Program-made: the position numbers and the translations under genes
Assembly: GCF_014204535.1 (NCBI RefSeq)
Contig: NZ_JACHLR010000001.1
Location: 62,001-126,000, forward strand
Origin: Novosphingobium chloroacetimidivorans
GTDB taxonomy: Bacteria; Pseudomonadota; Alphaproteobacteria; Sphingomonadales; Sphingomonadaceae
Direction: 5' to 3'
Length of the DNA: 64,000 nucleotides
In this document: positions 7,406-49,455 of the stretch, piece after piece
How the letters are laid out: each line of letters opens with the position of its first letter
How positions within the stretch are numbered: the first letter of the stretch is position 1
Notes under the pieces: model-generated
Told to the model about the DNA's origin: nothing
The model's input: only the letters and a program-made list of their open reading frames with translations
Databases searched by the model: none

Positions 7406-7420
7406 GAACATATCAGGAAC
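7406..7420 (+). promoter_or_regulatory. LexA operator (SOS box) of dnaE2
   Basis: GAAC-N7-GAAC (7406-7409 and 7417-7420), the direct-repeat LexA box of alphaproteobacteria read on the reverse strand as GTTC-N7-GTTC. It ends 29 bases before the dnaE2 ATG, which fits damage-inducible control of an error-prone polymerase. Confidence 0.8.
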
Positions 7421-7449: not shown

Positions 7450-10400
7450 ATGCCCGAAGCCCCACTCACCCCGGATCGCCGCCGGATCGACATCGATCCC
7501 GATACCGTCGAACCGCCCGAGCCTGCGCCATTCGTGGAACTGGGCATCGCCAGCTGCTTCTCGTTCCTGCGCGGCGCGTCGGATGCGGCGCAACTGGTCG
7601 AGCGTGCCTGGCAGCTGGGCTACGATGCCATCGGCATCGCGGACGTCAACTCCATGGCCGGCGTGGTGCGCGTCCATAGCCAGTGCAAGAACGTGAAGCT
7701 GCGACCCGTGATCGGCTGTCGGATCGAGACCGTCGAAGGGTTGGTGTTCCTGGCCTACTCACGGGATCGCGCCGCATATGGCCGCCTCTGTCGCTTGATT
7801 TCGGCAGGGCGCATGGGCACGCTCTCGGGCGAGTGGCAGGACAAGGGCATATGCGAGATATCGCTGCAGATGCTCGCCGATCATGCCGAAGGCGTGCACC
7901 TGATCCTGGTCCCTCCGCGCGATCTGAAATCGGAGTACGAGATCGCCATTCCCAGCAACGTCGTTGCTCTTTCCATCCTTGAAGAGGTTGAAGATAGAAC
8001 TCTGACCCCGTTCAAGGCTGCCTGGCTGGACCTCGTTCCACACTTGACCGCACAGCTGCCGAGTATGCGCCATGTTGCCGCCTCCTACATTTACAGCGGA
8101 GACGATGTGGCCCGGATCGATGCGCTGGATGCGTTGGCCGGCCGAAACGCACTGACCATCCTTGCCACCAACGACGTGCTCTATCACGAGCCTACGCGCC
8201 GCCCCCTGCAGGACGTGATGACGGCGATCCGCCACAAGACTACCGTGGCCCAGGCGGGCTGGCTGCTTGAACCCAATGCCGAGCGGCACCTCAAGTCGCC
8301 GGAAGAGATGGCGCATCTGTTCGCACGCTGGCCGCATGCCATCGCCGCCGCACGGACGCTGGCGGATGACTGTGAGTTCAGTCTCGAGGATCTGAGATAC
8401 GAGTATCCTGAAGAGATCTGCCCCACCGGCCTGGATCATCAAGCATACCTGGAACAGCTGACCTGGCTTGGCGCCAAGGACCGTTTTCCCAAGGGCATGC
8501 CGCAGCATGTGGAAGAGACGTTGGTCAGGGAACTGGCACTGATCGGCAGCAAGGAGCTGGCAAGGTATTTCCTGACGATCAAGGACATCGTCGATTTCGC
8601 CCGCAGCCAGGAGCCGCCGATCTTGTGCCAGGGCAGGGGATCGGCAGCGAACTCCGCGGTGTGCTACTGCCTGGGAATCACGTCGGTGAACCCTGCCGAA
8701 CACGCCTTGTTGTTCGATCGCTTTATCTCAGAGGAGCGCAGCGAACCGCCTGATATCGACATCGACTTCGAGCATGAACGGCGCGAAGAAGTGATTCAGT
8801 ACGTTTACAAGCGCTACTCGCGCGAGCGGGCAGGTTTGTGTGCCACGGTAATCCACTACCGCCCCCGCATGGCCATCCGCGAAGTGGGCAAGGCCATGGG
8901 CCTGACTCAGGACGTGACGGCAGCTTTGGCCCGGACGGTCTGGGGCGGCTGGGGCACGGAGATCGGCCAGAAGCACGTACAGGAAACGGGAATGGACGCT
9001 GGCGATCCGCATCTTAGACGCGTTCTCGCGCTGACCGAACAACTTATTGGAATGCCTCGCCATCTTAGTCAACATGTGGGTGGCTTCATCCTCACCCAGG
9101 GTCCTCTGACGGAGACAGTGCCGATCGGCAACGGGGCCATGCCCGAACGTACGTTCATCGAATGGGACAAGGACGATATCGACGAGCTTGGCATCCTCAA
9201 GGTCGACGTGCTGGCGCTCGGCATGCTGACCTGCATCCGCAAGTGCCTCGACTTGCTGGAGGACCACCACGACCGCAGCCTGACACTCGCCACGGTGCCG
9301 CGCGAGGACCCGGAAGTCTATGCGATGCTGCAGAAGGGAGATTCATTGGGCGTCTTCCAGGTGGAAAGCCGGGCGCAGATGAACATGCTGCCCAGATTGC
9401 GCCCGCGTGAGTTCTACGACCTTGTGATCCAGGTGGCTATCGTGCGGCCTGGGCCGATCCAGGGCGACATGGTCCATCCCTACCTGAAACGGCGACGTGG
9501 CGGGGAGGTGGTCCAGATTCCCGCACCATCTCCCGAGCATGGACCTCCGGATGAATTGACGTCAATCATCGGGCGCACGCTGGGCGTACCCATCTTCCAG
9601 GAACAGGCGATGAAGATCGCCCTGGATGCGGCCAAGTTCTCGAACAAGGAGGCGAACCAGCTCAGGAAGGCGATGGCGACGTTCCGGTCACGCGGCATGG
9701 TGGACGTGCTGCAGGAGCGGATGGTCGGCAGGATGATCGAGCGTGGCTACGATCCCGACTTTTCAGAGCGTTGCTTCAACCAGATCAAGGGCTTTGGCGA
9801 GTATGGGTTTCCCGAGAGCCATGCCGCCAGCTTCGCGCATCTGGTCTATGTCTCCAGTTGGCTGAAGTGCCACTTTCCGGCGGCCTTCGGGTGCGCGCTG
9901 CTGAACTCGCAGCCGATGGGCTTCTATGCGCCGGCGCAGATCGTGCGCGACGTTAAGGAGCATGGGGTCGCGGTGCTGCCGTCGGACGTGAACGGCAGCG
10001 ATTGGGACTGTACGCTGGAGGATTTCGGTCCTCCCCGGCACGGGGAAGGGGACAATGCGCAGCATGGTGGTGGGAAGTCGCCGCAGTCGCCGTGCCTTGT
10101 CGAGAGTCCCCTCCACCACGCCGCTGCGCGTCGCGGTCCCCCTCCCCGTGCCGGGGAGGACAAGGGGCGCCTCGACAAGCACATCGCACTGCGATTGGGG
10201 CTGCGCCAGATCGACGGGTTTCCCGAGGCCGCCGCGGCGCGGATCGTCACCGCGCGCGCGGAAGGCGGTCCGTTCCGCGATGTCACCGATTTGCGCGAGC
10301 GGGCAGGGGTGTCGCCGGCGCTGATCGAGCGGCTGGCCGCGGCCGATGCATTCGGTTCGCTGGGACTTTCGCGGCGGCAGGCCTTGTGGGAGTCGCGCAG

Positions 10401-11112
10401 CCTGATCGCGGCGCCCGACCTGCCGCTGTTCGCCGCTGCGGCGGCGCGGGACGAGGGGGCCGAGAAGGCGCTCACCAAACTGCCGCGCATGCCGTTGAGC
10501 GAGGAGGTGGTCGCCGATTACCAGACCCAGCGCCTCAGCCTGAAGGCACATCCCATGGCGTTCCTGCGCGCGAACCTGGCCGATCGCGGCTTCGTACGGG
10601 CCTGCGATCTGCGCAGCCGCAAGTTCCGCTCGATGGTGCAGGTCGCGGGCGTGGTGCTGATCCGCCAGCGGCCGGGCAGCGCCAAGGGCGTGTGCTTCAT
10701 CACTCTGGAGGACGAGACCGGCGTGGTGAATCTGGTGGTCTGGCCCGACCTCAAGGAAAAGCAGCGCCGCGTCGTCATGGGTGCGCGGCTGATGGAAGTG
10801 CGTGGCCGGGTCGAGTACGACGACGAGGTGATTCACGTCATCGCCGCGCACATGACCGATGCCACGCACGAATTGCACCGCCTGTCCGAGGATCTGCTGC
10901 CCGCCACGATCGCGCGCGCCGACCACTGCAACAATCCGCTGCCGAGCAAGTGGGGCCCTCGCGAGGATCTGCGCACGGGCAAGGATGACCCCTTCAAGCC
11001 GATCGAATACGACCAGTGGACGCCGCCCGGTCCCGGCAGTCGCGAGTGCGGGTTCCACCAAGGGCACCCGCGCGACGTGCGGGTCATCCCCAAGTCACGC
11101 GACTTCCACTGA
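7450..11112 (+). CDS. dnaE2: Error-prone DNA polymerase DnaE2 (C-family) carrying an in-frame palindromic insertion
   Basis: DnaE2 carries out translesion synthesis and damage-induced mutagenesis, usually with ImuA and ImuB. At 1,220 residues it is longer than the usual 1,050-1,100. Domains in order: PHP domain (about 28-240, starting VELGIASCFSFLRGASD), polymerase core with catalytic Asp in PDIDIDF (D435, D437) and LKVDVLALG (D586), helix-hairpin-helix region (about 908-965) and C-terminal OB fold (about 1035-1110). Part of the extra length is residues 860-904, encoded by a near-perfect palindrome at 10028-10161 that keeps the frame open. A LexA box lies just upstream. No imuA or imuB is adjacent. 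ATG at 7450 lacks a Shine-Dalgarno. Confidence 0.95.
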   Translation: MPEAPLTPDRRRIDIDPDTVEPPEPAPFVELGIASCFSFLRGASDAAQLVERAWQLGYDAIGIADVNSMAGVVRVHSQCKNVKLRPVIGCRIETVEGLVFLAYSRDRAAYGRLCRLISAGRMGTLSGEWQDKGICEISLQMLADHAEGVHLILVPPRDLKSEYEIAIPSNVVALSILEEVEDRTLTPFKAAWLDLVPHLTAQLPSMRHVAASYIYSGDDVARIDALDALAGRNALTILATNDVLYHEPTRRPLQDVMTAIRHKTTVAQAGWLLEPNAERHLKSPEEMAHLFARWPHAIAAARTLADDCEFSLEDLRYEYPEEICPTGLDHQAYLEQLTWLGAKDRFPKGMPQHVEETLVRELALIGSKELARYFLTIKDIVDFARSQEPPILCQGRGSAANSAVCYCLGITSVNPAEHALLFDRFISEERSEPPDIDIDFEHERREEVIQYVYKRYSRERAGLCATVIHYRPRMAIREVGKAMGLTQDVTAALARTVWGGWGTEIGQKHVQETGMDAGDPHLRRVLALTEQLIGMPRHLSQHVGGFILTQGPLTETVPIGNGAMPERTFIEWDKDDIDELGILKVDVLALGMLTCIRKCLDLLEDHHDRSLTLATVPREDPEVYAMLQKGDSLGVFQVESRAQMNMLPRLRPREFYDLVIQVAIVRPGPIQGDMVHPYLKRRRGGEVVQIPAPSPEHGPPDELTSIIGRTLGVPIFQEQAMKIALDAAKFSNKEANQLRKAMATFRSRGMVDVLQERMVGRMIERGYDPDFSERCFNQIKGFGEYGFPESHAASFAHLVYVSSWLKCHFPAAFGCALLNSQPMGFYAPAQIVRDVKEHGVAVLPSDVNGSDWDCTLEDFGPPRHGEGDNAQHGGGKSPQSPCLVESPLHHAAARRGPPPRAGEDKGRLDKHIALRLGLRQIDGFPEAAAARIVTARAEGGPFRDVTDLRERAGVSPALIERLAAADAFGSLGLSRRQALWESRSLIAAPDLPLFAAAAARDEGAEKALTKLPRMPLSEEVVADYQTQRLSLKAHPMAFLRANLADRGFVRACDLRSRKFRSMVQVAGVVLIRQRPGSAKGVCFITLEDETGVVNLVVWPDLKEKQRRVVMGARLMEVRGRVEYDDEVIHVIAAHMTDATHELHRLSEDLLPATIARADHCNNPLPSKWGPREDLRTGKDDPFKPIEYDQWTPPGPGSRECGFHQGHPRDVRVIPKSRDFH
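10028..10161. repeat. 134-bp palindromic (MITE/REP-like) element inserted in dnaE2
   Basis: The 26-bp ends (10028-10053 and 10136-10161) are inverted copies with one mismatch; the left begins GTCCTCCCCGGCACGGGG and the right ends CCCCGTGCCGGGGAGGAC. Symmetry continues inward (TGCGCAGC with CGCTGCGCG, GGTGGTGGGA with GTCCCCTCCACCAC) around a loop near 10080-10105. Elements with CTCCCC/GGGGAG ends and a CACCAC/GTGGTGG interior are frequent intergenic repeats in sphingomonads. Here it is translated into a Pro/Gly/His-rich segment between the polymerase core and the helix-hairpin-helix domain. Confidence 0.85.
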
Positions 11113-32747: not shown

Positions 32748-33211
32748 AGCCGGATCTCGGCGCGGTCCTTGCCATCGAGCAGTTTCTGCTCGGCGTTGAT
32801 GCTTTCCTCCGGCTGGTCTCGGTGCGCGCAGGCGAACACGACCGTGCCCACCGGCTTCATCTCGCTCCCGCCGCCAGGCCCGGCAATGCCGCTGATCGCC
32901 ACCGCCACATCGGCTTCGCTGTTGCGCAGCGCGCCTTGCGCCATCGCCCAGGCGGTCGCGGGGGAAACCGCGCCGAAGGCATCCAGGATATCGTCCGAAA
33001 CACCCAGCAGCTGCTGCTTGGCCTCGTTGGAGTAAGTCACGAAGCCACGATCCAGCACGGCTGACGAGCCGGCGATCTCGGTGATCGCCGCGCAGACGAG
33101 CCCGCCGGTGCAGCTTTCCGCGATGGCGACCTTGCGCTTGGCCGCGATGTTCTCAGCCACGACGCGCTCGGCCAGCGCAAGCACCGCGTCCGACAGGATG
33201 GCAGAGCTCAT
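32708..33211 (-). CDS. CinA C-terminal family nicotinamide-nucleotide amidase (PncC-like)
   Basis: A 167-residue stand-alone CinA C-terminal domain. The family motifs VAIAESCTGGLV, GFVTYSNEAKQQLLGV and VAISGIAGPGGGSEMKPVGTV are complete. Such proteins deamidate nicotinamide mononucleotide in NAD salvage. It starts 3 bases after the stop of the hypothetical exported protein at 33215. The 3' end overlaps the COQ10-like gene by 40 bases tail to tail. Confidence 0.92.
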   Translation of the reverse strand: MSSAILSDAVLALAERVVAENIAAKRKVAIAESCTGGLVCAAITEIAGSSAVLDRGFVTYSNEAKQQLLGVSDDILDAFGAVSPATAWAMAQGALRNSEADVAVAISGIAGPGGGSEMKPVGTVVFACAHRDQPEESINAEQKLLDGKDRAEIRLQATLVALELLLP

Positions 33212-48477: not shown

Positions 48478-49455
48478 TCAGTTCGGGCGAGCCGCATCTC
48501 TAGGCATCGCAGCCGAGGCCAGCAACCCGCCAATCTCCAATATGAGCAACCCGGCATCGAAATTGTAGGTCGGGGCTTGTGCCGCAAGCCGGGTCAGCGA
48601 GACGTGCGCCTCGATCAGGGCCGCCTGCCGCGCGGAAGGGGCTTGCGGAAGCTCTGCCGCGAGCGCGGCGCGGGCGAGTTCCAGGATGGCGAACTGCCGA
48701 TCGCGCGGTGGGCGTGCGCCGAGCGCCTCGGCAAGAGCGCCGCGCAAGCGGAACTCGGGATCGCCGTTCGCCAGGATGTTGCGCATCAAGGCATGGACCT
48801 CGGTCAGGCCATGCTCGGCGAAGCTGAGTGCCACGCCCGGTGAGCCATGGGCGGCGCCGATCGCCGCATCGCGCAAGGCGGCATCGGCATCCGGCACGTC
48901 ACGGCGGATCACCGCATCGAGGTCCTTGGCCGATAGCGATGCGAAACGCAGGACGCGACAGCGCGAACGGATGGTCGGCAGCAGGCGCCCGGGCTGGTGC
49001 GTGACCAGGAGGAAATACGTGCCAGCGGGCGGCTCCTCCAGCACCTTGAGCAGCGCGTTGACGGCACCCTTCTCCATGTCGTCGGCCGGATCGATGACGA
49101 CGGCCCGGCGGCTCCCCATCGTCGGCTTGGTCGACAAGCGGCGGATCATGCCGCGGATCTGGTCCACGGTGATGTTGCGCTTGGTCTGGTACGGCTTGCC
49201 TTCCGCCTTCTTCTTGGCTTCATCGTCGTTGGCGGGCAGATGGGTGAGCACGTGGATGTCGGGGTGCGTGGCAGGATCCGGCAAGGCGGCGCCTTGCTCG
49301 CGCACGAGTTCGGCCGCGGCGGCAAGAGCGAACTTGCCTTTGCCCAGCCCCTTGGCCCCGGCGAGGAGCCAGCCATGATGCATCCGCTCCGAAGCGACGG
49401 CATCCATCCACTCGCGCCAGGCGGCTTCCTGGCCGATGAAGGCCTGCGCGCTCAC
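48478..49455 (-). CDS. holB: DNA polymerase III subunit delta-prime
   Basis: A clamp-loader subunit. The 325-residue product has HHGWLLAGAKGLGKGKFAL (Walker-A-like GAKGLGKG), the long insertion HPDIHVLTHLPANDDEAKKK, SRRAVVIDPADDMEKGAVNALLKVLEEPP and LLPTIRSRC. It starts with GTG at 49455, overlapping the tmk stop by three bases, so the two are coupled. No zinc Cys are seen. Gene order tmk-holB is standard in alphaproteobacteria. Confidence 0.94.
   Translation of the reverse strand: MSAQAFIGQEAAWREWMDAVASERMHHGWLLAGAKGLGKGKFALAAAAELVREQGAALPDPATHPDIHVLTHLPANDDEAKKKAEGKPYQTKRNITVDQIRGMIRRLSTKPTMGSRRAVVIDPADDMEKGAVNALLKVLEEPPAGTYFLLVTHQPGRLLPTIRSRCRVLRFASLSAKDLDAVIRRDVPDADAALRDAAIGAAHGSPGVALSFAEHGLTEVHALMRNILANGDPEFRLRGALAEALGARPPRDRQFAILELARAALAAELPQAPSARQAALIEAHVSLTRLAAQAPTYNFDAGLLILEIGGLLASAAMPRDAARPN

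Follow-up and report, generated by a model that had tools for sequence, protein, structure and literature searches.

One loop of the error-prone polymerase DnaE2 is filled by unrelated palindromic elements in Novosphingobium and beyond

A loop of the error-prone polymerase DnaE2 is a recurrent landing place for unrelated palindromic elements. In Novosphingobium chloroacetimidivorans, the loop holds one copy of a repeated palindromic family, here named family A, within a gene whose frame is intact. We analyzed a stretch of 64,000 nucleotides of this genome (the window), in which the gene and its associated features lie as follows.

7450-11112, plus strand: dnaE2, error-prone DNA polymerase III alpha-like protein of 1220 aa, frame intact through the insert (DnaE2 relatives; Pol III alpha by sequence and fold)
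7406-7420, minus strand: candidate LexA box GTTC-N7-GTTC, 29 nt upstream of the dnaE2 start
7969-7995, plus strand: second DnaE2 hairpin turn, residues 174-182, PHP domain (palindromic inserts in relatives)
8752-8766, plus strand: D-I-D-I-D catalytic-type motif, residues 435-439, intact
10028-10161, plus strand: family A palindromic element, in frame, residues 860-904 (open reading frame, arms, genome copies)
10028-10053, plus strand: left terminal arm, 26 nt (inverted-repeat computation)
10136-10161, minus strand: right terminal arm, 26 nt, 25/26 complementary to the left arm (inverted-repeat computation)
10056-10074, plus strand: left inner arm (approximate), prolonging the hairpin (RNA fold read onto the sequence)
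10108-10129, minus strand: right inner arm (approximate; RNA fold read onto the sequence)

The terminal arms of the 134-bp element are 96% complementary and flank an 82-nt spacer, and in the fold the symmetry extends inward of them. The RNA of positions 10020-10170 folds at -96.2 kcal/mol (z -5.7), and none of 200 shuffles folded as well. Within the 64-kb window, the 19-nt arm core (two mismatches or fewer) was found only at the two arms themselves. The whole element lies inside the open reading frame 7450-11112, and arithmetic places it at residues 860-904. The encoded protein matches Pol III alpha both by sequence and by fold, and its D-I-D-I-D motif presumably has a catalytic-type role. Upstream of the gene is a GTTC-N7-GTTC motif, which we take to be the alphaproteobacterial LexA box. 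LexA-type boxes number two in the window versus 1.53 expected by chance, and the position alone argues for this one; it suggests that dnaE2 may be under SOS control.

The insert sits after the polymerase core and before the helix-hairpin-helix domain. Two inter-strand turns of the AlphaFold model (mean pLDDT 82.2) score below 50, one at residues 863-902 and the other at 174-182, and the insert blocks have values of 29-46 between two beta strands, low pLDDT not being proof of flexibility. No palindromic insert was seen at the 174-182 turn of the window DnaE2. The original prediction had described a near-perfect palindrome located wholly within the DnaE2 frame, probably in a surface loop. The pairing of the arms with their inward symmetry and the intact 1220-aa frame bear out the first two points, and the third agrees with a model in which most of the insert has pLDDT below 50 between two beta strands.

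The element is repeated across the host genome (4.61 Mb, 88 contigs). We detected at least 96 matches, a lower bound because 40 of 137 initial candidates were scored; merged by hand, they correspond to 40 places, part of which match a related element, D, better. Nineteen near-full-length family A copies (126-160 bp) align end to end. Their consensus ends are TGTCCTCCCC on the left (13 of 19 copies) and GGGGAGGACA on the right (17 of 19), and because of these ends the element may be one or two bases longer than 10028-10161. No target-site duplication is visible by eye in the 19 aligned copies, the exact ends of which are uncertain. Three of the copies (in dnaE2, in metH and at L013) are stop-free in all six frames, and the other 16 contain at least one stop. 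Twenty spanning open frames from 16 places were scanned with Pfam, although frames with no Pfam domain may also be genes. A copy in metH (L079) is in frame and spanned by the MetH activation domain, and a copy in truB (L069) is in frame between the two domains of TruB; no domain extends across the copy in the other scanned frames. At least three genes of this one genome are hit: dnaE2, metH and truB.

No mobilizing enzyme was found in the host genome, the profile sought being the RAYT domain (PF01797), which has no match there and is present in 5 of 14 control genomes. A RAYT-driven REP was rejected on these grounds. Elements A and D adjoin, 4-11 nt apart, at several places in the genome (in G000, C2:266443-266592 with 266602-266746, C6:32736-32885 with 32890-33040, C12:124048-124195 with 124207-124349, and C3:48599-48742 with 48748-48895), as if they might form a composite unit. 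Contigs C4, C6, C12, C16 and C22 end at or near element copies, so the family A copy number is probably underestimated. The genome also encodes a second, diverged DnaE2 (L097, contig C24) with 49-55% identity to the queries and no large insert at the loop.

Across the genus, a 210-aa query from an empty DnaE2 orthologue matched 182 of 195 genomes, some of these matches being DnaE1 or a second, more distant DnaE2. Close orthologues (at least 72% identity in the upstream part) number 87, counted by hand from the tables. In 57 of them the match is contiguous (56 over the whole query, one from residue 47) and the loop is about 3-21 aa long, the length being inferred from match length for rows that were not fetched. 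The remaining 30 (17 and 13 rows in two tables) have an interrupted match and a loop of 23-88 aa. A further genome outside the 87 (G091, 70% identity, L201) is also filled and palindromic. All but one of the 30 long loops were read whole (L034 of G026 ends inside the element), and 25 of these 29 contain an inverted repeat equalled by at most one of 60 shuffles, which preserve base composition only; the other four (L159, L161, L186 and L187) fail this test. Catalytic motifs are kept in 49 of 49 genes with loops of at least 23 aa and a covered catalytic region. The segment had been expected to be absent from most close relatives and to have other copies in the genome. Both expectations hold, with loops of about 21 aa or less in 57 of 87 genus orthologues and at least 96 matches in 40 places, including at least two other copies in genes (metH and truB). 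The filling of this loop by unrelated elements across many species went beyond what had been predicted.

The inserts are diverse. Clustered at E 1e-4, with other genera included, the insert DNA forms groups of 17 (GAG-rich), 5, 5, 4, 4 and 2 with palindromic members in them, the group of 17 perhaps being joined partly by composition (low-complexity filter off). L031, L208, L330 and L341 are palindromic singletons. About seven of these groups or singletons, unrelated at the DNA level, occur in the genus. Matches to the GAG-type sequence are present in 27 of 44 genomes and to D in 36 of 44, many of them short and 32 of the 44 genomes having been picked for a long loop (at least 21 aa). An exact 14-mer of E was detected in 17 of 20 genomes (reversed control, 0) and is absent from the window genome. 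On a tree of 118 rows, from which duplicates, short rows and rows below 74% identity in the upstream segment were dropped, there is a minimum of 31 changes in insert state, and of 20 for loops of 20 aa or more versus shorter ones. Branch support is low (15 of 115 inner branches starred), and these parsimony changes may each be a gain or a loss. Near relatives differ, as in L144 (5 aa) versus L234 (83 aa).

The same loop is filled outside the genus. Among the best 80 named loci listed, 11 have loops of at least 40 aa, all with inverted repeats (1/60 or better); they include Erythrobacter, Novosphingobium, Roseomonas, and Caulobacteraceae and Rhodospirillaceae MAGs. Three of the 11 overlap with other counts (L222 = G113, L225 = G018 and L268 = G529), L222 being Novosphingobium sp. 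FSW06-99. In an even sample of the class, matches came from 170 of 337 genomes, and loops of at least 40 aa occur in eight or more of these, the window genome among them (G000, G284, G322, G470, G394, G383, G529 and G463). G463 ends at a contig edge; six of the other seven pass the inverted-repeat test and G383 fails. The insert of L244, labelled as a Marivivens sp. MAG, groups with sphingomonad inserts, and this bin is possibly mislabelled or contaminated.

Within DnaE2, the loop is not the only site. In an alignment of 98 full proteins, segments of at least 15 aa beyond the common core cluster at residues 163-193 (41 rows, many with a naturally longer form), at residues 863-911 (20 rows) and in the C-terminal tail (18 rows), with few single sites besides. 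The ten longest segments at 163-193 beat 20 of 20 composition shuffles in inverted-repeat score, which the C-terminal tail segments tested do not. Insert-like segments were also observed in the helix-hairpin-helix region rather than at the usual loop, near residue 940 in L043 and in the same region in L336. No internal insert of at least 15 aa is present in any of 20 DnaE1 proteins of the genus, whose long extra segments are only N-terminal, where frames were read stop to stop; a general Pol III alpha phenomenon was thus not seen. TruB functions in tRNA modification. Of 30 TruB loci, segments were read for 18, and the loop is filled by repeat-like sequence in four: L385 (from the window genome), L387 and L389, which pass the inverted-repeat test (0/60), and L386, which fails (6/60). 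A fifth long loop, in L391, also fails (42/60). A phenomenon confined to DnaE2 was rejected given the filled TruB loop.

One informative pair shares an old insert, L029/L030 (L162/L163 are too similar to tell). Its dN/dS is 0.68 in the insert versus 0.12 in the flanks, and the insert peptide is little constrained. The dS is 0.21 in the insert versus 0.47 in the flanks. Among 61 stem pairs there are no compensatory and nine one-sided changes, and changed positions make up 9 of 122 in the stems versus 21 of 88 in the rest of the insert (Fisher p 0.001). The stems may be under constraint, or they may be corrected or converted, perhaps through gene conversion or hairpin-templated correction. Given the stem deficit and the lower insert dS, plain neutrality does not predict this pattern. 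Together with the intact motifs, the pattern agrees with an insert that is translated and tolerated in a living gene; an effect on activity is compatible too.

We consider it likely that the element is a small palindromic mobile passenger, in frame and kept at a flexible turn. In favour are the multi-copy family with common ends, the recurrence of unrelated inserts at one loop, the intact catalytic motifs, the fast-evolving peptide of L029/L030 and the 20 insert-free DnaE1. On this reading dnaE2 would have taken up one copy of a small mobile element that is palindromic and non-autonomous. Elements of this kind, of which these genomes would hold many unrelated families, may insert widely, with most in-gene insertions being lost; survivors would be those that keep the frame, lack stops and occupy an exposed, flexible beta-hairpin turn. 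The main such place in DnaE2 would be the turn that follows the polymerase core and precedes the helix-hairpin-helix domain, and this turn would for that reason be filled repeatedly. The element would be transcribed and translated, yielding a flexible stretch of about 45 residues, and would be mostly a tolerated passenger. The stem deficit, the lack of a visible target-site duplication and of a RAYT, and the four of 29 long loops that are not palindromic all argue against this reading.

Alternatively, the palindrome may lower or alter DnaE2 activity, as an mRNA hairpin or as a peptide near the clamp-binding region, its gain being favoured as an adjustment of SOS mutagenesis. Such tuning agrees with the repeated filling of an error-prone polymerase but none of the 20 sampled DnaE1, with the strong RNA hairpin and with the reduced change in the L029/L030 stems, and the part of Di Nocera et al. 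(PMC3733652) drawn on here raises, as speculation, a mutator effect when repair genes are REP-tagged. We nevertheless regard it as unlikely: the inserts vary in family, length and peptide, an inverted repeat is missing from four long loops, the pattern recurs in TruB with its tRNA-modification role, and L029/L030 combine a peptide dN/dS of 0.68 with no compensatory stem changes. It is a rather unlikely extension of this idea that mobile palindromes land at the DnaE2 turn across the class and repeatedly rewrite part of the SOS mutator polymerase, element gain and loss shifting the mutation rate of a lineage; if true, selfish DNA would act as a switch on evolvability.

It could also be that gene conversion has overwritten the sequence of an old insertion with that of other copies in the genome, and that some insertions which look different go back to a single one. 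The window genome (A, L028) and its tree sister G193 (D, L168) carry unlike elements with related arms and a similar right-hand junction (GGAGGAC or GGAGGATC, then AAGG), and the reduced stem change in L029/L030 would fit as well. Filled and empty relatives, however, alternate over the tree (L144/L234, L140/L158 and L126/L166) and most insert groups share no DNA similarity; we regard this reading as improbable. Site-directed insertion, in which the DNA at this hairpin would be a preferred target of several mobilizing systems, is very improbable. Many families do meet at one loop, but entry points lie several codons apart even within family A (after LE: DFG, EY, HLEKN and DVRKI), the 19 aligned copies have no common flank beyond their ends, and the PHP-domain and TruB loops are filled as well. 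Removal of an intron- or intein-like element at the RNA or protein level is scarcely credible, as nothing beyond the insertion itself favours it, unrelated sequences of 23-88 aa occupy one place, and the frames are open throughout, which RNA-level removal would not require.

The loop represents a natural experiment in which one polymerase loop receives unrelated palindromes in many species while close relatives are empty, and it shows how small palindromes, probably mobile, can persist in genes and lengthen proteins. The idea, put forward earlier, of repair enzymes being tuned by REP insertions becomes directly testable. For annotation, such loops should be regarded as element-derived and not as conserved domains. 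The literature searched, which covered few subscription journals, yielded no description of a hot spot at a DnaE2 loop.

Several known systems resemble family A. Like MITEs as outlined in the portion of PMC10969869 considered here, it is short, multi-copy and bounded by terminal inverted repeats; the target-site duplication of MITEs is not visible by eye in the 19 copies, whose ends are uncertain. Rickettsia palindromic elements (RPE; Ogata et al. 2000, 2002, as described in the same portion of PMC10969869) are palindromic, measure about 150 bp and in many cases lie in frame within protein-coding genes. Family A likewise occurs in frame in a protein-coding gene and in several genes of one genome; the likeness drawn here is one of description. 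Unlike the RPE described there, its host is Novosphingobium and not Rickettsia, and several families recur at one loop.

The closest comparison is with REPs. In the part of Di Nocera et al. 2013 (PMC3733652) used here, these are small palindromes, GTAG- or CGTC-tagged, mostly intergenic and in some cases contained entirely within a gene. The carriers it names include DnaE2 genes and truB, the latter in species such as E. litoralis and S. alaskensis, and, recB of two Xanthomonas excepted, REP sites differ among genes of the same functional category. Family A resembles these REPs in being a palindromic repeat in frame in DnaE2 and truB. It is longer than the REPs of that account (126-160 bp, 19 copies), its consensus ends (TGTCCTCCCC and GGGGAGGACA) are neither GTAG nor CGTC, and the RAYT that accompanies a GTAG-type REP has no PF01797 match in the host genome. 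Going by that same part of the paper, in-frame REPs in DnaE2 and TruB are already known, differing from the present case in that here one DnaE2 loop is common to many families and species. The extension lies in this recurrence of many families, in many species, at a single loop.
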